Shown here piece after piece: positions 10,856-45,427 of a stretch of DNA of 64,000 nt (the stretch's first letter is position 1; the number at the start of each line of letters is the position of its first letter). The DNA comes from Mytilus galloprovincialis (Eukaryota > Mollusca > Bivalvia > Mytilida > Mytilidae). The stretch is from positions 61,350,439 through 61,414,438 of the forward strand of contig NC_134847.1 in the NCBI RefSeq assembly GCF_965363235.1, in the 5' to 3' direction. The position numbers and the translations under genes were made by a program. A model generated the notes under the pieces. It saw only the letters and a program-made list of their open reading frames with translations. It ran no database searches and had not been told where the DNA came from.

Positions 10856-11989
10856 TCAGAATAATTATTGTCTAGGGTTCAATACATTACTGATAAGATT
10901 TCAGACTAATAATAGGTGTACTGAGAATATCACAACATGCTCTTTGTGATACTATATTTTGAACTTGTTTTGTCCAGTAGTCAATTATTCATGCACGTAG
11001 TGCATCAATAGTGTATTCAAACTCCCCGGCAGTTCCAGTTCCGATCCGCATACGGGCCCGAATACTACTCTACACTAATCACTGCCTTCGGCTTTTTTCG
11101 TTACGCGCTCTTCAAGCGGTTTGACCCGGATTGACCTTTTGTTGCTACTGAAGCAAATATGGCTGAACATTGATGAATGAGGATAATTGTTATTAACTTT
11201 ACCAGTATATATGAATAAAAACACTAACCGTAAGTAAAATGCACTCAATCCAAATAATTTTACAAAATAAAAATTTGCAAATTTCTGTATCGTTAGGTCG
11301 AAGAATTCAATTCTGGCATGAAAACTCGATCGACTTTGTTGAAAAAATCTTCGTCAATGAATAAACATAAAATATGATCTTCTCGTCTGTGAAGTTGAAA
11401 GAACACTTAACGCTATAGCTTTTGATATTAAATTGGACATACTTTTAATAAACTGGCACCCAATCATCAGCTAATAAACTCGTTTGAAGAACAGAATACA
11501 ATGTTGGGAGAGTGGCTAAATTTTACCCGAGAAGCTGCTCCATGTGGAATTAAAGATATTTTACAAAAGACAAATTTGGACTCTATAGGGATAAATTTAG
11601 GATTTCCTGGGAAAGGGGTGCAAATAATGCCAAATTGACACATGGCTTCAAATACATTATTTAAACGAACTTCAGTAAGGGCTGTATTACATGTATATTA
11701 TATTAAGACTCTGTTTACTTACCAATCTCCGAATTTCTCAAAACTCAATTTAGATTTCATGGATAAAAAAAATAAAACAATCATAAATTATTATAATTGA
11801 AAAATAATATAGGGTAACACACACATTACTAAATTTGTTATGCAATTTGCTTTTATTATATATATGTCACCATGGTCATGTATGTATTAATTTACAATAT
11901 TCTGGATGGGAGCATTTCCATTTCGAAATTACTATATTTTATTGAATTATTATCCAGTCAATTTATAGTCTATACAATATAATAATAAT

Positions 11990-12019
11990 AACCCCCCCCC
12001 CCCCCTCCAAAAAAAAAGT
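11990..12019. repeat. Poly-C / poly-A tract
   Basis: A run of C residues followed by TCC and a run of A residues. Low-complexity sequence inside the large insertion, no other content. Confidence 0.8.
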
Positions 12020-12606
12020 AAAATCTTTATAATTTTGGTCCAATTATTCTGTATTCTATTTACCCGTTAAGAACCACATTTAGGCCAAATAAATAAATAT
12101 GTGTGTTTCCTATTTCCCTCTGTACTAAACCCTATATGTTTTAAGCTTGGAAATAGCTGCCTACCTTAAAGTTTTTTTTGTAATTTTCCAATAAGCACTG
12201 TTTAAGTCAGATTATCTCTCCCTTAGACTCAATGTAAAAAAAAAATGTTGAATTACATAAATTCCCTACCTACAATGTACCTACCATTTATTTTCAAAGA
12301 TGTAATAGGAAACACACACAGTATTTTATTTGGCCTTAGCCCTTATATATACAATGTACATGTACTCTTAATAAACCTTTTATTCCTGCAATAAAAAACA
12401 CTTTTGACTATAATTCTAAGACGCCAGTAATCAATTCTAATGTTTTTATTTTTATCTTACAGATGGTGACAAAAAAGATAACAGCACAGTGTTAAGATTG
12501 AATCAGAATGAATAAAACAAAAAGATTATAATAGGTATTGGGTTTTTTTTTAAATATTTTTATTTGCATGGATTAATTACTTTATCAATTTATAAAAAAA
12601 TACTAT

Positions 12607-12687
12607 TTAATTATCCTGCCTTGCATGGAATAATTAATTATCCTGCCTTGCATGGAATAATTAATTATCCTGCCTTGCATGGAATAA
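12607..12687. repeat. Three exact copies of a 27-bp tandem repeat
   Basis: The unit starts TTAATTATCCTGCCTTGCAT and is repeated at 12607, 12634 and 12661 without differences seen by eye. A partial relative (TTGCATGGATTAATTA) lies just upstream near 12565. AT-rich minisatellite with no coding content. Confidence 0.9.
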
Positions 12688-13439
12688 AATGACAACTTAC
12701 ATTGTTCTAAAAAAAAATGTTTGTAAATAATGAGTAAAATTAATGCTCAATAACAATGTTTAAAATGTTAACATCAAAACTGATTTTGATTTGAAGCCAT
12801 ATTTTATGAAATTGATTAATGTAGACAAATCTTTTTTATAGTTACAAATGTAGGTGACACTTAAACACTCAATATCTTTCTTTAATTAGTATAGTAGGAT
12901 GATACAGATTGATGCCTGTGAAAGAATTATAAAAAAGGTTGCATTCAGTTTTTTATTGTCAATAATACTTCCCTCCCCCTATTTTTCAAACTTTTTATAT
13001 GTTAAATAATGCAGGTCCTTGCATTTCAACAATTTATTTTTAGTTATACTCATTTTATTATTTCATTAATTACTTTCAGCTCCCTCAACCAGAAGAACTA
13101 TGAACACAGTTATTGATTTCTATGTTTCCTTGGAGATTTTAACAGTTATTGTTAAAACTTGAAATCTAACAGAATGAAAATTTGAGAAAATTTACATATA
13201 CAGTGTACATGTACATGTAGCTTCAATATAAATCAACTGATACACCGTAAGTATGTCTTCTATATATGAAAGTTATAAATTGGTTTGTTTACAAAATTTA
13301 TTTTTTACTAGATATATTGGAGTAAATACCGGACCAAATTATATATTAAAGCAAATACTCACAAACGTTTTTTTTTTTAAAATTACTAATATTCCTATAT
13401 GGTGATATAAATTATATGATCAAATTGTGGATACAACTA

Positions 13440-13950
13440 CATGGTTTATGCTATAAACTGTGAATATAAAAAAAGAGTATGTTGTATGATTGCCAATGAG
13501 AAAACTCTTCCAACAAGAGACCAAATGACAGAAGTTAACAACTGTAGCCTATAGTAGGTCATAGTACAGTCTTTAAAACAATGAGTAAAGCCCATACCAC
13601 TCAGAGAGCTATAAAATACACTGAAATGACAAATGTGAAACAATTAAAACTAGAAATTTGGCCTAATTTATCATACATGTATGTACAAAATAATGAACGA
13701 AAAACAAATATGTGACACATCAAACAACAACCACTGAATTAAAGGCTCCTGATTTGGGACGGACACAGACATACATAATGTATCGGGTTAAACATGTTCG
13801 CTGGGACCCAACCCTCCCCTTACCTGGGACAGTGGTGTAAGAGTACAAAATAAAAACAAACTATAAAATTCAGTTGAAAAAGACTTAAATCTTAACTCAT
13901 CATGAGATGGATACAAGTAGAAATAAATAAAACCAAGAAAAAGGGGGCAT
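13440..13950 (+). repeat. Dispersed repeat family A copy
   Basis: Contains the markers GTATGATTGCCAATGAGAAA, CAACAAGAGACCAAATGACA, GAGTAAAGCCCATACC and CCTGATTTGGGACGGACA. Other copies or pieces are at 21400-21660 (inverted, in a Helitron), 22735-22990, 50120-50530 and 59490-59545. Likely a retroelement untranslated tail or SINE-like family. No coding frame is conserved. Confidence 0.6.
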
Positions 13951-14278
13951 GGTCAGGTACTATTACATACAAACAACTGAAAGACACTTAGTATAGATCT
14001 AGATTATTTACTCTAAGCACACTCAAGCTTAATAGATGTGAAAAATACCCTAAATCTGATAGGTCCTGCAACTTTTGACTCCAAAAAATTACTTATAAAG
14101 GGAACTCAATCTTAATTTTGTGTTAAAATTTCATGAGAAATTGTTCAAAGCAAAGGAGAAGGCCTAGGGCATTAAAGGACTATTTTTTGTCCAAGAATAT
14201 ATACTATTCCAAAAAACCCCATTATGTTTGGAATTGCATAAATTTAAGAAACATGAATTAAAAACATAATATTTTTTA

Positions 14279-15760
14279 TACGACCGCAAAAATTAAAAAA
14301 ATTTTGGTCGTATATTGGTATCACGTTGGCGTCGTCGTCGTCGTCCGAATACTTTTAGTTTTCGCACTCTAACTTTAGTAAAAGTGAATAGAAATCTATG
14401 AAATTTTAACACAAGGTTTATGATCACAAAAGGAAGGTTGGAATTGATTTTGGGAGTTTTGGTCCCAACATTTTAGGAATTAGGGGCCAAAAAGGGCCCA
14501 AATAAGCATTTTCTTGGTTTTCGCACTATAACTTTAGTTTAAGTAAATAGAAATCTATGAAATTTTGACACAAGGTTTATGACTACAAAAGGAAGGTTGG
14601 GATTGATTTTGGGAGTTTTGGTTCCAACAGTTGAGGAATTAGGGGCCAAAAAAGAGCCCAAATAAGCATTATTCTTGGTTTTCGCACAATAACTTTAGTA
14701 TAAGTAAATAGAAATCTATGAAATTTAAACACAAGGTTTATGACCATAAAAGGAAGGTTGGGTTTGATTTTGGGAGTTTTGGTCCCAACAGTTTAGGAAT
14801 AAGGGGCCCAAAGGGTTCAAAATTAAACTTTGTTTGATTTCATCAAAAATTGAATAATTGGGGTTCTTTGATATGCCGAATCTAACTGTGTATGTAGATT
14901 CTTAATTTTTGGTCCCGTTTTCAAATTGGTCTACATTAAGGTCCAAAGGGTCCAAATTTAAACTTAGTTTGATTTAACAAAAATTGAATCCTTGGGGTTC
15001 TTTGATATGCTGAATCTAAAAATGTACAGTATTCAGCAATAGCAAGAAATCTTCAATTGCACAGTATTGTGCAATAGCAAATATTTCCAATTGCACAGTA
15101 TTGCGCAATAGCAAGAAATATCTAATTGCAATTTCAATTGGAGTTATCTTTCTTTGTCCAGAATAGTATTTGAATCAACTTAAATCATTGTTTTATACAA
15201 TATATATAATTGATATTTCAATTGGAGTTATCTTTCTTTGTCCAGAATAGTAGTTGAATCAACTTAAATCATTGTTTTATACAATATACAATGTATATTC
15301 ACTTTTACTACCGACTGATAAATTAAAACAATCTTTACCATTCAGTGATAACAAGCACTTTATTTTACATTTTAATATTTTATGATGTATTTAAATGAGT
15401 AGTTATTGTTGCAATCTCCATTATTAGAAATTTGAATTGAGATCAGTTTTGGAAAAAGGGAAAGGGGGATGTGAAAAAAAAAAAAATGGGGGGGGGGGGT
15501 TAAATTTTTCTCATTTCAGATTTCATAAATAAAAAGAAAATTTCTTCAAACATTTTTTTGAGAGGATTAATATTCAACAGCATAGTGAATTGCTCAAAGG
15601 CAAAAAAAATATTTTAAGTTCATTAGACCACATTCATTCTGTGTCAGAAACCTATGCTGTGTCAACTATCTAATCACAATCCAAATTTAGAGCTGAATCC
15701 AGCTTGAATGTTGTGTCCATACTTGCCCCAACCGTTCAGGGTTCAACCTCTGCGGTCGTA
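14279..15760. mobile_element. TA-flanked TIR element (TACGACCGCA ends), 1.48 kb
   Basis: The ends are perfect inverted repeats TACGACCGCA / TGCGGTCGTA with a TA on each side, the mark of Tc1/mariner-type insertion. Next to the left end are a GTCGTCGTCGTC run and three tandem units of about 160 bp. These begin TTTTCGCACTCTAACTTTAG and contain GGAAGGTTGG and GGGGCCAAAA. Near 15030-15125 there are three copies of a (TT)GCACAGTATTG(T/C)GCAATAGCAA word that can fold on itself. There is no transposase frame, so it is non-autonomous. A diverged relative of its right half lies at about 18890-19400. It is nested in the 9.96-kb insertion. Confidence 0.75.
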
Positions 15761-15849
15761 TAAAGCTGCACCCTGCGGAGCATCTGGTTGTCTGATAAGG
15801 TCACAATTACATCATGAAGACGAGGACAAATATAGAATTTATGCAGTTT

Positions 15850-16300
15850 CCAAAACAACAAAATAATTTAAAAAAACTTTTATTATAACTATTGACATAA
15901 TCTCACTAAATATAATTTTTTTCTTGGATGGGCACATTACAGTCTAAAATATAATTTTATTTGACAAAAAACAAAGAAAATTAAGAAATTTTACAAATTT
16001 GGTCTAAGTTTATTGCCATGGTAACTCTTTAGTTGTAAAAAAAAACCCATTATTTTCTGAATATGGTGTACCTTAGTCTAGTTTGGACAAATTTTGAAAT
16101 ATTTAGGATAACTGTTAAATTAGCAGTAATATCTGGGCCAAATAAAAACCTTTTTTAGTTAGCCCCTACTACTTTGAGATATTGAACAAAGTGTTGCCAT
16201 AATGATTTTAAAGGATGGATGGACAAACAATGGCATAACATATACATCCCTTACCTACCAGAAGTTACAAAGTTATAAAAAAAATGTTTATATATTTTCA
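15850..16300 (+). repeat. Dispersed repeat with GGATGGATGGACAAAC tail
   Basis: Ends in AAGGATGGATGGACAAACAATGGCATAACATA, broken here for length: GGATGGATGGACAAAC then AATGGCATAACATA. This resembles the intronic repeats at 10140-10590 and 44100-44570, which end in GGTGGACGGACAAACAGATGG and GCGGACGGATATACGG. Boundaries are vague and no coding content is seen. Confidence 0.4.
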
Positions 16301-17129
16301 GATCACAATTATGTCAACCTAATCATTGGAAGTTTATCAAGTTACATGAGAAGCATTGAAAGCCTGCAGAGATTCTACATGTATAAATAAATGGAATAGA
16401 CTCACACTTAAAAATAACTTTTACACAAGACTAATGCACTCTCAAACAAGGATTATTCATGTTTCAATGAGTGAATTGAAGTGCATACTAGCTGCTCATG
16501 AAAATTTGTGTGCATTTTTTAAATATTTATTTTCGTTTTATTGATTGTTGTTTTCAAAAATTTGTATGTCTTCATAAATTAATCATGAACATACATGTAT
16601 TGTTGTTAATAATTAAGATAGATATAAAGAATATTTTTATCTCAGTTTTAGCCAAATGATACAGTTAAATCTGATTTAACTTCTTTCCAAATATATAAAC
16701 ATATGAATACAAGGAGATTTGGGGTATAGGTTCATTGGACAGCATCCCAACAACAACAAAAAACCACAAGACTAAAGTTGATTACAATTTTCCAAAACAG
16801 AATAGTTTCAATTGGCCATTCATCAAAAAGTGTGAATATATTTATAGCCCAACAAATAAAGATCTGCTATCAACAAAAAGAAAACAATAATAAAATTATC
16901 TCGCAAATGAATTATTATTGTGCAAACAGGGTTAACCCGATCTCAAAATGGATACATTATAAACGCTTTTGATTAAATAGTAGATTTTATGCATAAAAAA
17001 AATGCAGTATTACAACTGCTTTTACTACAATGACATTCATTTTTGTCATGAATTTGATGTTAAAATACTTATGGCATATATTACCATATGAGATATTCAA
17101 GCTCCATGTAGCTTTCAGTTTTTGTCGAG

Positions 17130-18263
17130 CGTGCGACTTTTGTCGCAGAAAGCTCAACATAGGGAGAGTGATCTGGCGGCGGCTGTGTATGCTAACTTCT
17201 TAAAAGCTTTGTATTTTAGAAGGTGGAAGACCTGGATGCTTCATACTTTGTATATAGATGCTTCATGTTACAAAGTTTCCGTCAGTCACATGTCCAATGT
17301 CCTTGACCTCATTTTCATGGTTCAGTGACTACTTGAAAAAAAGTTAAGATTTTTTGTAATGTGAAATTCTCTCTTATCATAAGTAAAAGGATAACTATAT
17401 TTGGTATGTGCGTAGCTTGCAAGGTCCTCATGCCCGTCAGACAGTTTTCACTTGGCCTTGACCTCATTTCATGGATCAGTGAACAAGGTTAAGTTTTGGT
17501 GGTCAAGTCCATATCTCAGATACTATAAGCAATAGGTCTAGTATATTTGGTGAATGGAAGCACTGTAAGGTGTACATGTCCAACTGGCAGTTGTCATCTG
17601 ACCTTGACCTCATTTTCATGGTTCAGTGGTCAAAGTTAAGCTTTTGAGTTTTGGTCTTTTTTTTCTAATACTATATGCAATAGGTCAACTATATTTGGTG
17701 TATGGAAATATTTTATGATCTATATATCAGTTGTGCAGGTTTTATTTGACCTTGAACTCATTTTCACAGTTCATTGCTCAGTGTTAAAGTTTTGTGTTTT
17801 GGTCTGGTTTTTTTAAACTACTGTGGATTCATTTATTTTCGTGGGTACCAATTTTCGTGGATAAGGGAAAACTTGGATGTTCGTGGATATTTAATTTCGT
17901 GGTTTTGATGAAGTCATCCTATAAGCCCATAGCAAATTTGTCATTCGTGGAACATTTAATTTCGTGGTTTACCTGTAACCACGAAACCCACGAAAATTGG
18001 TATCCAACGAAAATTAATGAATCCACAGTATAAGCAATAGGTCAACTATATTTGTTGTATGGAAGAATTGTTAGCTGTACATGTCTGCCTGGCATGGTTC
18101 ATCTGACCTTGAGCTCATTTTCATGGTTCATTGGTCAATGTTAAGTTTTCTTGGTTAATGTTATGTTTATGTGACTGTTGAAATAAAGCTTTATATTTAG
18201 GACTATCAACATAATATCAATGATTAGTAAAGAAGGCGAGACATTTCAGCGTGTGTACTCTTG
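17130..18263 (+). repeat. Array-type repeat with TGACCTTGACCTCATTTTCA units
   Basis: About five units, roughly 145 bp apart, each contain a version of TGACCTTGACCTCATTTTCA followed by TGGTTCA and a conserved ACTATA(A/T)GCAATAGGTC word. The left end has CTTTTGTCGCAGAAAGCTC and the right end GAGACATTTCAGCGTGTG. The same family lies inverted at 30643-31506 with the same two ends. It is interrupted by a TIR element at 17821-18028. No coding frame. Confidence 0.75.
17821..18028. mobile_element. 208-bp MITE, CTGTGGATTCATT ends, TA target site
   Basis: It starts CTGTGGATTCATTTATTTTC and ends AATTAATGAATCCACAG. It is flanked by TA on both sides inside one unit of the surrounding array. Neighbouring units read ACTATAAGCAATAGG without it, which is the empty site. 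Internal ATTTTCGTGG / CCACGAAA words extend the inverted symmetry. Tc1/mariner-type MITE by its TA duplication. Confidence 0.85.
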
Positions 18264-18889
18264 TGTTTCCTTACTGAATAAAAATTATGAGATTTCAATT
18301 GCTAGTGAGACAATAATTTAGCAGTGACAAACAGGCAATTGGACCAGATTCCTTTTCAAAGTTTTTGAAATATAAGCAATTGATTTACAGTACATATATT
18401 CATCACTGGTTTAATGCACACAACTACAATAACAATTACTGTTAATGCCAAGAGTATCAGGACATAATTTGGGTGTAACAGCTACCAAGGTATCTGTTAG
18501 CTTAAAACCCAGTCCCCAATCATGTATATTAAATAATTGAAATTGGTTAATGTGCAGTAAAAGTAAAGAGTATATGTACAATAATGTAAAAGAGAAGGGG
18601 TCAAGATAATGTTTTGATGAGCAGTAATAAAAATACAATAAAAATTAATGCAGCAAGGTTCAGTATTTCAAAGAATTATTTCATAGGTGTCTAGGTAAAA
18701 TGTTTGAACAAGAATAGGATTCATAATTATTAGGACCATTACATCTACATATACCATTCATCTATTAAAAGGGGGGCAGGTTTGTTTTCTCTCTCGGAAA
18801 TAACATAAATTTAAACTGCATTGATCAATTTGTTTTATACAACTGCTAGAAATTTGTGGTTGTGTAATGGTATGGTGATGTCATCATTG

Positions 18890-19400
18890 GGAGACATTTA
18901 GTTTTTAGACAATAACTAAAGTATAAGAGAAGGGATCTGTACAAGATGGTCCAACCGGTCCAAAATTAAAATTTTTGTTTGATTTTTATAAAAAATAAAT
19001 ATTAAGGTTTTTTTGTTATGCTGAAGCTAAGGTTCCATGAATTTAGATTTTGAGCCCCATTATTAAATTAGTCTCACATTGAAGTCCTAAGGGTCCAAAA
19101 CTAAACTTAATTAGTTTTCATTAAAAGTTCAATTCTTCTGATTCTTTGATATGCTGAATCTCAACATGTAATTATATTTTGAATATTATACCATATTACA
19201 TGTACATATTATAAGTGAAATATCCAGTTTTAAAACTTAAAGTTCTTAGTCCACATTCAATCTGTGCCAGAAATCAAGCTATGTCAAATATATATATATA
19301 TATAATCACAATCCAAATTGAGAGCTGTATCAAGCTTGAATGTTGTGTCCATTATTGTTCAGGGTTCCACCTCTGGGTAGTATCTAGCGGCACCCAACCA
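18890..19400 (+). repeat. Diverged partial copy of the TACGACCGCA element
   Basis: Shares with 14.8-15.75 kb the phrases GGTCCAAAATTAAA, TTCTTTGATATGCTGAATCT, AATCACAATCCAAATT, and TTGAATGTTGTGTCCAT followed by GTTCAGGGTTC. The terminal TACGACC repeat was not seen on the left. A short TA run lies at 19286-19303. Old, decayed copy. Confidence 0.5.
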
Positions 19401-20289
19401 TGCCAACAGAGCATTATATTTTGGAAGGAACAAACTTATTTTAACAATTCACTTTTGAAAACAATTATTATAGATACAACGTACATAAATGCTGATTTCA
19501 TGAATTTTCTTGTTTCATTACACCTCTAGAGCTGTCATGATTGATGAAAAGAAAGACTGACCATATTCATACTTGACTTGATGACGTCATAAAAAAGTTC
19601 AAGCGGTATCAAGCCTGCAATAACTCTTGGATGTGTGGTTGTTCACAAATAAAATAAAACTGAATAAACATTATAATTGCTATTGTAGGTAAGAAAATCT
19701 GGAACACATGTTAAAATATGTCACATTTTGTAAGGTTTGACATGACAAAATGACTGAGATTACTAAATAAGTTTTAGTCATTGCAGACTGTGGCACATGC
19801 AGGTTATACCTTATGACCTATAGTTGCTTAAATCAATATCATTTGAACTTTGGTGGATAGTCACATTAGCAATCATACCTGAACTCCATATTTTAATCAT
19901 CATGTATATTACAGCACATAATGTGTTAAGAGTTTCTGTTCCAATCATTGTATAAATATCAAATGGCCAATATATTATGTGCTACTCAAGTTAGTGAACA
20001 TATTGAAGGGCAAGTTAACATGGTCATTTGTTAATTAGTCACAAATGTGTTCACTATATGTCAATGATGCAAACTTTAAAGTTTATATATGTAGGGTTGT
20101 CTAACTGACAACCTCTTTACTTCATACTGAGAATGTCTTGTCATAGTGAAAGTACAAAAGTGAAAAGAATGAAAATGGCACGTACATTTTTATGTTTATG
20201 TTATTTGCAAAAACTTTTCCCAGAGAACCTTACTTCTATCTGGTATTTTTTACTAACAATGTTAAACCTTGAACAGAAATGATATGAAC

Positions 20290-20455
20290 CTACAGTCTTA
20301 TATTACATGGGAAGGGGCACTGACTGACCTAAAAAGGGGGGGGGGGGGTTGTTGTTTCCAGTCATGCTTCAGTGATTCCCTATATAATAAACCAACATTT
20401 ACCAGGGAAAAAAGGGGGGGCTGGGCCACCCTGGATCCGACTATAAATGGATAAA
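20290..20455. mobile_element. Partial CAGTGGCGGATCC-type MITE
   Basis: Contains GGGGCACTGACTGACCTAAA, a G run, CAGTCATGCTTCAGTGATTC and a GGATCCGACTAT end, matching the elements at 26423-26587 and 26856-27013. The left terminus is degraded. It is nested close to the right end of the 9.96-kb insertion. Confidence 0.55.
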
Positions 20456-20973
20456 AGATGTCCCTTTATGTTCATAATGAGAAAAGGAAACATGGAAAGG
20501 CTTGCATAATTTGGTAGACCAAACTTCCTCCGTTGACAACCGCATATTCATTCAAATCATCATTTGTACCTGTCCAAGTTTATGTTGCAGCATTTGGGCT
20601 TGTTTTCCCTTTGGACTTAGGAGGGACTATGCGCCTAACACACATTTCAATTATATATCTGATTCACGTTTCCCTCCATGTTTACTTTCCAAAGGGTTCG
20701 GGGAGATAACTTAGATAAGAATGCACACATAATAAAGGTCCTGTGTGGGACGTAAATTTAATGCTCATTTTTTAAATCTAGGAAAAGTTGTTTAAATTTT
20801 GGGAAGAAATTATCAAATTGAAGTTTTTCAAGACGGTAACTAATGGTTCTGAGGAAATTTATTGCGTAGATAATCGTTCCAAAATTTGGAACGAATTTCG
20901 AAAGCCGGTGGCAGTGATTGATGGAGTAAGGGAAAACAGTTCCGGAACGGAAACGATCACTGTCCGGAGTTTG

Positions 20974-21144
20974 TAGTGTATTTGCACTTCGGTTTAACAT
21001 CGCAATTATTCAATTTGATAAGTATTTCGTCTCATATAGGTCATTTCTAATCGATCACTAAAAAGAGAAAGCAGTTGTTGTATGCATCACTGAAACGTAG
21101 CACAAGTGTTATATAAATTTGAGACTCGTTCCTTTTATTTGCAA
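20974..21144. repeat. Segmental duplication, copy I, middle part
   Basis: Resumes the block after the large insertion. TAGTGTATTTG is followed by CGGTTT, CATCGC, GAAAGCAGTTGTTGTATGCA and CACTGAAACGTA, which match 44955-45065 of copy II. It is cut off at 21145 by a Helitron end. Confidence 0.8.
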
Positions 21145-41917: not shown

Positions 41918-44752
41918 TTAGTGTTGGCACCTACAACTTCCATCGACACAATGTGCTCGTCCTCCATGCTTTTGACAATGTTGGTGACAGTCATCACGTG
42001 TGGTACAAGCTAGAAGTAGAAGTTTTTTACATGTAAATAGTACCATTTTTATAAGCAAATAGGTTTTCCAACTGTTTAAAAAAAAAATCACCAGAGTACA
42101 TAATAAGTGAAATATCAATTATATCTGAGATATCTATAGTTGAGAATATGAATAAAGGATAAAATACATGTTACGCTTTCTTCTTTGTTTTGCTTTAGAA
42201 GATATGACAAAATATTCAAATTAATACTATAGAGTGAAGAATTCATGGACAAAGTCCTGTATTGGTTTCACATATTCCACTTCATTACTCTACATTACAA
42301 CAATCAATTTTGATATGGCATTAATTTTGTAAGAAATCAATATAGTTTTGTATTACAGATTTTGTTTTTATAATTGTTTTGAGATTTTTTAATTAGAGTA
42401 GAATCTATTATAGAGTAACTGCTTCATACATGTTAAGGTAGCACAATACAAAGATTTTTTAACTTCCAATCTCCAAATTTTAAAATGTCGTTACTTTCTT
42501 AAAACTGCTTATAAATTAATGAAAGAGGTATATATAGATAGATAAAAGATTTATCTTTTAAATGAATGCAGTATTATTGTTATGCAATCATTATGTAATC
42601 AATTATTATGCAATTAATGCCACAATCTTGGTCAGTTCATTTGAATGAATTTAGCTTCCACTCATCTCTATAACTATACAGGAAATGTTAACGAAATCTT
42701 AATCAACACAGCAGGAGCTACAAAATAATGTCTCAAATTATCTCTATCGTAATCCATTATCTCATAAATCTGTAATAAGTGTAAACATCCTTACCAAATA
42801 AAAGTATATAATGTTTGATTATATACAGTCTATCCGAAATCTGAGACATGCTTTTGTAGATAATGGCTCTAGGAACAACTTATAATAAAATCAACCCTCT
42901 CGAGGTATCCATGAAGAAGCTATTTTCAATTGCAATTGGAAATTTTGTGTTAAATTTTGCAGACACAGTTAACATTATAATTGATTACATAATTGTTGTA
43001 TAATATTAACATTGCATTCATTTGAAAGAGTAATCTTTAAGCTGTCCATAAATACCACTTTTATAAATGTTCAAGCACTATAAAGAAAGTTACAGCATTT
43101 TAAAACTGGCGATTGAAGGTATAAAATCTTTGTATTGTGCTACCTTAAACTGGCTTTGTTTGATTTATTTATTAAATGAATGAAATATTCTTATATCTTA
43201 CCGTTGCCGGTATTGGTTGCACATGTACAACTGTGGTCAATACAAGCCAATGATCCTTGAGAACACTGTGTCAGAGAGCAGTCCGTTGCTTGTTTACAGT
43301 TCTCTGCGTAAACTGTTACTATAAAATGAAGAGGATATAATTTTTTGGTAAATTCTAAAATAGTGTTTTGTCTTAAATACAAATATGATTTCCCAAAAGA
43401 TGTTGTTGGAGAAACAAATTAATATGATATTGCATAACCTACAGTTTAGTGAACACATCAAATCGTTTAAACTAAGTGATATAATATTAAAAGTTATCAC
43501 AATTGTGTCACACTCGGATAAAGCGTTCGAAAAAAATGTGAAGTCAAGTAAGGTGAAATTCTTTTTATTTTCATATATTCTACGTGTTCCTGACAAGTAA
43601 ATATTTAGACTGATTCATAATAATGATTCTACTATTTAATGCTGAATGTAATCCTTTTTGGCTATTCTCTTGAAATTGTCGGAAACTGATCGAATGGTAC
43701 CTATTCAACCTGTAAACTATCATTGTCTCTTTGCTTATGGGTACATGTATCCAATAGTGATACTTAAAAGTGTTCATATGCCAGTAAACGAATATGTCTG
43801 TTCAAAACAGAATTCCATGTACTTAACGTATAAGAAACGTTCGCCATCTTAAATTATTATTTGGAATTTTTTCTTAGATTTGAAAAACTGAAACTAGAAT
43901 CGTGAGATCAAGGATAACAGATACCCAAACCACAGCATACTCTTGAACAGAATTGACTATTTTGTTAAAATCGATTTTTAATACTAGGCATGTTTGTATT
44001 ATTGTCAATTATGCTGTGTTTAAATTCAAAACGATTTTTTAAAACGATGAACACATTAATGTCCATGTAATGGTTATTTATTCATTATCTAGGAACCAAA
44101 GAAAATTTTGATTTAAGAATTAATAAGCGGCATACTCTTTAAATATTAAAGGCTAATACTGTCAAAATCGAATTTATTTATGGATCATACCATTTTGTTT
44201 TAAACTAAAAGAACTCTTTCAAGAAGTATCTTAGTTGGAACACAGAAACAAAACCAATTTTCAAAGATTTTAAAAGGGGTATACTCTTAATTGATAAATT
44301 CATACACTGTCAAAAATGAACTTGGTAAGTTTTAATTAAATCTATTAACAGAAACGATTTTGTAAAGTGAAACTATTATTTTCATTTTGAAATTAAAGAT
44401 CTTTCAGATAACTCACAGGCACATATCGGTTAAACACAGTCAAAATGAAATTTGACCTGTATTTGTTATGGTTCAACACTATGTTCAAATTTCAAATATG
44501 TAGTCAAGGTTTTTTTAATTATTTTCCCAAAATCAAAAGTTAAGTGTTGCGGACGGATATACGGATTGACGGAGATGTACATTATTATTTACCCGTCTAC
44601 CCCATCCCCCTTCATTGGCGGAGATATAACACTACACGTGGCTTATTTAATAAGATTTATCAAAGCTGGTATGAAGTAAATGTCTGCTTTTAGCTACAAT
44701 TAAATAATTACGTACCAAGGAAAACTAATGCGAAACACAGAACGACCTTCAT
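41918..44752 (-). CDS. I84-type (cvSI-like) secreted serine protease inhibitor, gene C
   Basis: Three exons on the minus strand: 44752-44716, 43318-43202 and 42009-41918. Introns are phase 1 with GT-AG ends, giving 81 residues. The signal peptide MKVVLCFALVFL is identical to that of gene A. Module 1 starts ENCKQATDCSLTQC and ends CIDHSCTC. Module 2 starts ACTTRDDCHQHC and ends CVDGSCRCQH. Twelve cysteines in two six-Cys modules fit family I84 (oyster cvSI inhibitors of subtilisin-type proteases). It differs from gene A at nine residues in module 1 but only two in module 2. Intron 2 carries a TTAA-flanked element (42437-43144) absent from gene A. It is head to head with gene D, with 675 bases between the two ATGs. 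Function by family resemblance. Confidence 0.87.
42437..43144. mobile_element. 708-bp TTAA-flanked TIR element in intron 2 of gene C
   Basis: It starts GGTAGCACAATACAAAGATT and ends, reversed, with the same GGTAGCACAATACAAAGATT. The symmetry continues for roughly 45 bases. TTAA lies on both sides (42433-42436 and 43145-43148). Gene A has CATACTGAAATGG at this point with no insertion. The TTAA target suggests piggyBac- or Kolobok-type transposition. No transposase frame is present. A weaker relative with GGTAGCA ends lies at 55883-56471. Confidence 0.85.
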
Positions 44753-45427
44753 TTTCTTGCTGTTTGGTTAGTAATGAGCATCATCTTGATATTTTCATTT
44801 TTATATCATAATAATTATTGTCGGACTAGGGTCCAATACATTACTGATAAGATTTCCGACTAATAATAGGTGTACTGAGAATATTAAAACACGTTCTTTG
44901 TGATACTTTATTTTGAACTTGTTTTGTCCAGTAGTCAATTATTCACGTTTATCAATAGTGTATTTGTACTACGGTTTCTCATCGCGATTATTTGTAATCG
45001 ATTACTAAACAGAGAAGGCAGTTGTTGTATACATCACTGAAACATACCACACGAGACCCGTTCCTTTCATTTTTTTAAATTTCAAAGTGTAACCAAATAC
45101 GATATATAAGGCTATACTCTCACCCAATATGGAATTTACTGAACAAAATAATTCGTATTAGGTCACTAGCACACAATGTAATGTATTTATCTTAACGACC
45201 ATCTCAACATGTGCTATTTAGACTAATAACATATCTAAGAGAATTGGACAGGCACAGCTAATTTAACATCATAATCAATTTTTTGTATACATGGTAATAG
45301 TTGGTAACGGTTTTAATTTATTTATTGTATGAACTCAAAAGTGCACGAAACAGGAAAGATCAGATTTGAACGTTCTGTGACCTTTCAAGAGATAATAATA
45401 AGCAGAAAGTTGAATATCTAATACAAA
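44753..45427. promoter_or_regulatory. Shared head-to-head promoter region of genes C and D
   Basis: A 675-base interval lies between the two divergent start codons. On the minus side a TATAAAAA box is at 44798-44805, 46 bases from the gene C ATG. On the plus side no canonical TATA is seen; GATAATAATAAG near 45395 is the closest. The interval is conserved with copy I, where it has been split by the 9.96-kb insertion and a Helitron. Confidence 0.6.

Follow-up and report, generated by a model that had tools for sequence, protein, structure and literature searches.

A family of large, apparently non-autonomous transposons in the mussel Mytilus galloprovincialis, with short stub copies that may arise by in-place loss of the body at the inner TIR edge

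Internal deletion derivatives of MuDR- and P-type transposons, formed by interrupted gap repair, keep their termini and TSD, lose the interior and carry filler or microhomology at the joint. Two further systems are close to the locus described here. The Tm1 elements of root-knot nematodes (Mutator/Phantom-Foldback) have 9-bp TSDs and termini shared among long transposase-less elements, MITE-like elements and deletion derivatives; they measure 0.17–2.5 kb, and a transposase copy is known (PMC3169594). Muta1 and other Aedes MULEs have 8- or 9-bp TSDs, long TIRs and many non-autonomous derivatives, with a 145-bp TIR of tandem subterminal repeats plus a transposase in Muta1 itself, whose derivatives are reported with truncated TIRs (PMC5225508).

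The family described here, A, was recognized from an insertion in a 64,000-nucleotide stretch of the mussel genome (the window). It resembles both systems in TSD length, the Aedes MULEs also in its TIRs and many non-autonomous derivatives, and Tm1 also in having the same termini on long and on MITE-like copies. Unlike Tm1, A reaches 15.5 kb with no transposase found, and its short copies (stubs) mostly have private junctions at one edge; where the Muta1 derivatives have truncated TIRs, those of A would reflect a recurrent internal cut. The stubs are like the MuDR/P-type derivatives in their kept termini and TSD, lost interior, filler and microhomology, but differ from them in breaking on the same left-arm nucleotide in 39 of 63 cases. 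In the open-licence PMC literature we found no description of the A family or of recurrent internal excision at a TIR edge.

The insertion in the window is real and is one copy of a large mobile-element family. An earlier note on this DNA had reported a perfect 9-bp TSD and a paralogous empty site with a single copy of the duplicated motif, and both hold: TAGTGTATT stands at each edge of the insertion (Table 1), and the flanks together with one TAGTGTATT align across the junction (82%, 824 columns) to a diverged paralogous block within the same window. By itself TAGTGTATT is not rare in the window (5 matches against 1.09 expected), and its evidential weight comes from its position at both insertion edges and in the empty paralogue. 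The outermost sequence is CAAACTCC at both ends. Aligned with gaps, the terminal 80 nt of either side form an imperfect TIR of ∼75 bp, the inner limit of which is a shared block, CACTGCC..CGGCTTT (AATCACTGCC..CGGCTTT), starting at position 63 of the left end and 58 of the right. The TIRs, which had been called long, are thus confirmed as inverted ends with a shared inner block, and are long only loosely.

Table 1. Positions of the A-family copy, its parts and the empty site within the window.
Feature	Position	Strand	Remark
A-family insertion	11018-20973		9,956 bp
Left TSD, TAGTGTATT	11009..11017	+	Read in window
Right TSD, TAGTGTATT	20974..20982	+	Read in window
Left arm, 62 nt, portion retained by most stubs	11018..11079	+	Exact 62 nt in 39/63 stubs
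Left inner TIR block, CACTGCCTTCGGCTTT; putative cut immediately 5'	11080..11095	+	
Body, 9,837 bp, common to other long copies, absent from stubs, no coding sequence found	11080..20916	.	
Right inner TIR block, CACTGCCACCGGCTTT (minus-strand reading)	20901..20916	-	
Right arm, 57 nt, outer end begins CAAACTCC	20917..20973	-	53-57 nt in 52/63 stubs
Paralogous empty site	44299..45051	+	Single TAGTGTATT at 44956-44964

With either end of the window copy as query, its own genome (1.385 Gb, 331 contigs) yielded at least 42 matches for the left end and at least 42 for the right (40 candidates scored). Other copies with the same ends, which the earlier note had proposed to look for together with their TSD lengths, therefore exist: pairing by coordinates among the matches listed yielded 34 long elements of 1,866–15,509 bp (median 9,707), and the 9-bp TSD is identical in 23 of the 28 long copies for which both ends and flanks were read. 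The exceptions are C4_68 (8/9) and C1_31, C14_19, C4_97 and C3_16 (at most 5/9); in C14_19 part of another right arm sits outside the right end, and nesting accounts for at least that case. The interior had been described as mostly other repeats, and this did not hold up, since 14 of the 15 other long copies compared share with the window copy a colinear body that is the family's own, at ∼69–99% identity segment by segment with deletions, indels and inserted sequence; the fifteenth, C4_68, has only its ends in common with the window copy. Among 40 matches to a 501-bp piece of the body, scored from 502 candidates, all but two (C1:85413862 and C12:55410308) were judged by eye to adjoin listed arms or lie in the same neighbourhood.

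No open frame of at least 110 aa occurs in the window copy, and none of its 20 ORFs of at least 60 aa matched a Pfam family above cut-off, in agreement with the earlier observation that no transposase frame is visible. The other copies contained 11 ORFs of at least 110 aa, nine of them without a Pfam match above cut-off. Two overlapping ORFs in a tandem repeat inserted in C8_21 did give Pfam matches, the 513-aa frame four above cut-off (DUF806 and others); given their tandem-repeat origin and the lack of any single stretch that passed, these were taken as repeat artefacts and not as true domains. No transposase domain was found in the ORFs of the A copies examined, in a search based on ORFs that intron-split exons could have escaped. 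Other copies with a 9-bp TSD and no transposase frame found support a very large non-autonomous family, as the earlier note had suggested for the single element.

Its superfamily is less clear. A search for MULE domains returned 140 matches from the best 150 scored of 324 candidates, and the PF00872 transposase two; among the matches listed, none lay within 37 kb of an end of A or of a second family, A2 (below), the closest being 47 kb from an A end and 38 kb from an A2 end. MULEs have TSDs of 8–11 bp, and the A family has 9 bp in 23/28 long copies and 54/63 stubs. The A termini are unlike those of the MULEs examined in this genome, two of three families having GG termini and 8-bp TSDs (three families among some 140 matches, the ends of the third pair not being visible). 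In animal MULEs, however, TSDs of 8 and of 9 bp both occur (PMC5225508), so that the local 8-bp/GG MULEs do not exclude Mutator for A. The assignment to Mutator-like elements therefore keeps the support of the 9-bp TSD and the TIRs while the termini of the two local families differ, and membership is not established. As a separate observation, two nearly identical pairs of MULE-bearing elements (L169/L170 and L173/L174; ∼2.7 kb, GG termini, 8-bp TSDs) are probably recently active Mutator families of the mussel genome.

The more striking part of the family is its stub copies, of which the earlier note had made no mention. A pattern for both ends matched the genome 247 times (the reversed control 0 times) and the exact left-end pattern 95 times. 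From these we fetched 80 loci around end matches (L069–L148), a subset of all matches that is biased to young copies by its exact end patterns, and 63 of the 80 are two-armed stubs below 200 bp, 72–142 bp in size and typically ∼113–117 bp. Left out of the stub counts were L075, L087 and L096 (two-armed, 556–560 bp, with inserted sequence), five loci where the script found a left arm only (L088, L100, L114, L145, L146), and nine where it found no left arm (L089–L092, L094, L106–L108, L147), although a worn second arm is visible by eye in L089, L091 and L094. The stub TSDs agree at 9/9 positions in 54 of the 63, at 8/9 in six, and less well in three (L095, L127, L144). Being short and non-coding, with TIRs and a TSD, the stubs have the features of MITEs. 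They lack the homogeneity of MITEs derived from one or a few founders, with 34 junction signatures among 63 stubs, 29 of them seen once, and yet four small groups (of 2, 4, 2 and 3 copies) consist of whole stubs that are identical but stand at different TSDs.

The breakpoints of the stubs cluster sharply while their junctions vary. In 39/63 stubs the left arm stops exactly at nucleotide 62, directly outside the inner block, and in 52/63 the right arm stops at 53–57 (exactly 57 in 17). Microhomology of at least 1 nt was found at 44 junctions, filler at 16 and a blunt joint at three; even among the 19 that lack microhomology, 10 have a left arm of exactly 62 nt. A genome-wide pattern for joints with the full left edge, which by design detects only that kind, was found at 57 places, with gaps of 0, 3, 4, 6, 8, 9 and 12 nt at 10, 17, 23, 1, 2, 3 and 1 of them respectively, so ranking T = 117 (23) before T = 116 (17) and T = 113 (10). 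Two stubs, L078 and L148, retain part of the inner block. Arm haplotypes are common to long copies and stubs, and the stubs are not clearly older than the long copies, private arm changes numbering 32 over 6,715 sites in the stubs and eight over 3,051 in the long copies (Mann–Whitney p = 0.20). Among the loci read in this assembly, none was seen both as a long copy and as a stub.

About as likely as not, in our view, the stubs arose where the body was cut out in place along the inner edge of the TIR and the break was sealed by end joining. On this reading a non-autonomous TIR transposon of large size (median 9.7 kb), with a transposase presumably supplied from elsewhere, would use its outer CAAACTCC ends to insert and duplicate 9 bp of target, a mode of entry that the TSDs themselves demonstrate. 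After insertion, a putative enzyme would make a double-strand break at the inner TIR edge, placed by the sharp edge just before CACTGCC on each side, and in many copies the whole body would be lost. End joining, accompanied by slight resection, microhomology or added filler, would then unite the remaining arms (62 and 57 nt) into a ∼113–117-bp stub between intact TSDs that is MITE-like but bears a locus-specific scar; MITE-like copies would in this way form repeatedly. No enzyme cutting at the inner edge was found. Each of the common joints (T = 113, 116 and 117) is found with several different arm haplotypes, and there is no association between junction class and haplotype (5,000 permutations, p = 0.91), as would be expected if each haplotype were cut anew and healed into a few favoured joints. 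Signs of breaks made after insertion come from L086, where 11 nt of a 23-nt filler repeat sequence from the 30-bp flank of that locus (0/500 shuffles), from L128, where 9 nt of the filler repeat sequence from the arm of the stub itself (p = 0.004), and from L100 and L107, where one arm is intact to the inner edge and the other is lost with its flank. Such local templates were seen in two of nine fillers of at least 4 nt, the other seven giving no signal. The identical stub sets at different TSDs suggest that some stubs may themselves have moved. The broader proposal, that this is a two-tier transposon entering by its outer ends with a 9-bp TSD and then amputating itself site-specifically at the inner TIR edge, in at least two families, we offer more tentatively. 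Outer and inner ends resembled each other weakly (best p = 0.006 of 24 uncorrected comparisons), and a common motif behind both was set aside.

The second family, A2, is represented by a 120-bp insert (L068, C1:127247457-127247576) with CAATCTCC ends and a 9-bp duplication, inserted near the left end of an A copy, in its subterminal region. Its exact end pattern matches the genome 116 times, and the 27 loci fetched include 14 two-armed stubs, with left arms of 58–67 nt in 13/14 and identical TSDs in 10/14 (L175 among these is doubtful and reads like an element end). The joints lie near the inner edge, which two long copies define for one side; both arms are complete in L165 and all but 1 nt in L166. 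The T = 120 joint recurs in 5/14, its copies being identical at several sites. The A2 stub pattern thus resembles that of A, and is less sharp. A candidate autonomous A2 copy at C2:15827743-15830837 was rejected (no TSD, no ORF over 95 aa), and a third end family, distinguished by C or G as its fourth base, was dropped as well with one match only.

Copies of A or A2 were also found inside the inner region of other A copies, so that the inner edge may be an insertion hot spot. Two A copies occupy the same 9-bp target, TGCCACCGG, in the right inner block of other A copies (C1:104.9 and C6:74.8; L006/L007/L058 and L025), in opposite orientation relative to the host copy; an element is inserted at ATCACTGCC in an A copy (C1:88.9), and L088 has an apparent A copy inside the stub centre. 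In C14_38 the sequence directly against CACTGCC is the end of an A2 element, and a one-ended excision considered for that locus was dropped. Several neighbouring repeats were noted in passing: two long copies, oppositely oriented and with insertion points one base apart, in what is apparently a single kind of repeat (L042/L043 and L059/L060); a further element of ∼450 bp, ending in GGGAAAACGGTA or GGTGGCACGGTA, that three A copies (L075, L087, L145) carry in almost the same position of the left arm; and the same unrelated repeat (GGTAAGCGGAAGAAGGGATCCC...) against the inner edge of two A loci (L114 and L062).

Excision in place has three rivals. The stubs could have come first, a ∼117-bp MITE having spread alone and then received in its centre a separate 9.8-kb CACTG-ended transposon (TSD AT), a passenger that leaves excision footprints on jumping out; we consider this unlikely. 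The T = 117 joint, which retains one AT, is the commonest of the 57 exact-edge joints (23), and identical T = 117 stubs stand at three TSDs. The CACTG ends and 2-bp TSD of such a body would be reminiscent of CACTA elements. In corals, a novel element created by MITE insertion has been reported (PMC2872659). A nested CACTA/EnSpm element should, however, combine CACTA or CACTG termini and a 2–3 bp TSD with independent sites, whereas the body has CACTG ends and no arm-free copy among 74 inner blocks. The outermost arm end adjoins 67 of the 74; in five others it is lost or displaced, and the two without a listed end have both arms (L148) or part of an arm (L147). Of the 40 body matches scored of 502 candidates, by eye all but two stand by a listed arm or in its neighbourhood. 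The inverted repeat moreover continues through the supposed insertion point, and the A2 flanks there are inverted (GAC/GTC) and form no direct TSD. With inner blocks almost only beside arms and no direct TSD in A2, a nested CACTA was given up as the leading reading.

Under abortive gap repair, the mechanism put forward for P and MuDR, the element would exit by its outer ends and sister-templated copying would stop early, the ends being joined into internal deletions that keep TSDs and termini. It accounts for the intact TSDs, local fillers, microhomology and near-terminal breakpoints of the stubs, and a bias of such deletions to the termini is expected by Tan et al. (PMC8277862). By itself it does not fix the left breakpoint at one nucleotide in 39/63 stubs, or in 10/19 without microhomology, and we judge it improbable. 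Folding predicts no arm hairpins of the kind that could halt synthesis, with z 0.43 and -0.62 for the two arms and -0.92 for a third fold, placed 2 nt off the stub (L141:36-152). That the stubs were amplified as several independent MITE lineages, the long copies being an unrelated branch with the same ends, would suit the four identical stub sets at different TSDs and the identical A2 copies with T = 120, but is very improbable given that 29 of the 34 junction signatures were seen once, that junction class does not track arm haplotype, and that stubs and long copies have arm haplotypes in common.

The origin of MITEs is an open question. Here a single genome holds many stubs, their arms nearly identical and their junctions mostly private, together with long copies as their possible sources, which makes the step from large element to MITE testable. 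Should the inner TIR edge indeed be cut by a dedicated activity, this would be a process whereby a transposon discards its own body, leaving harmless remnants.
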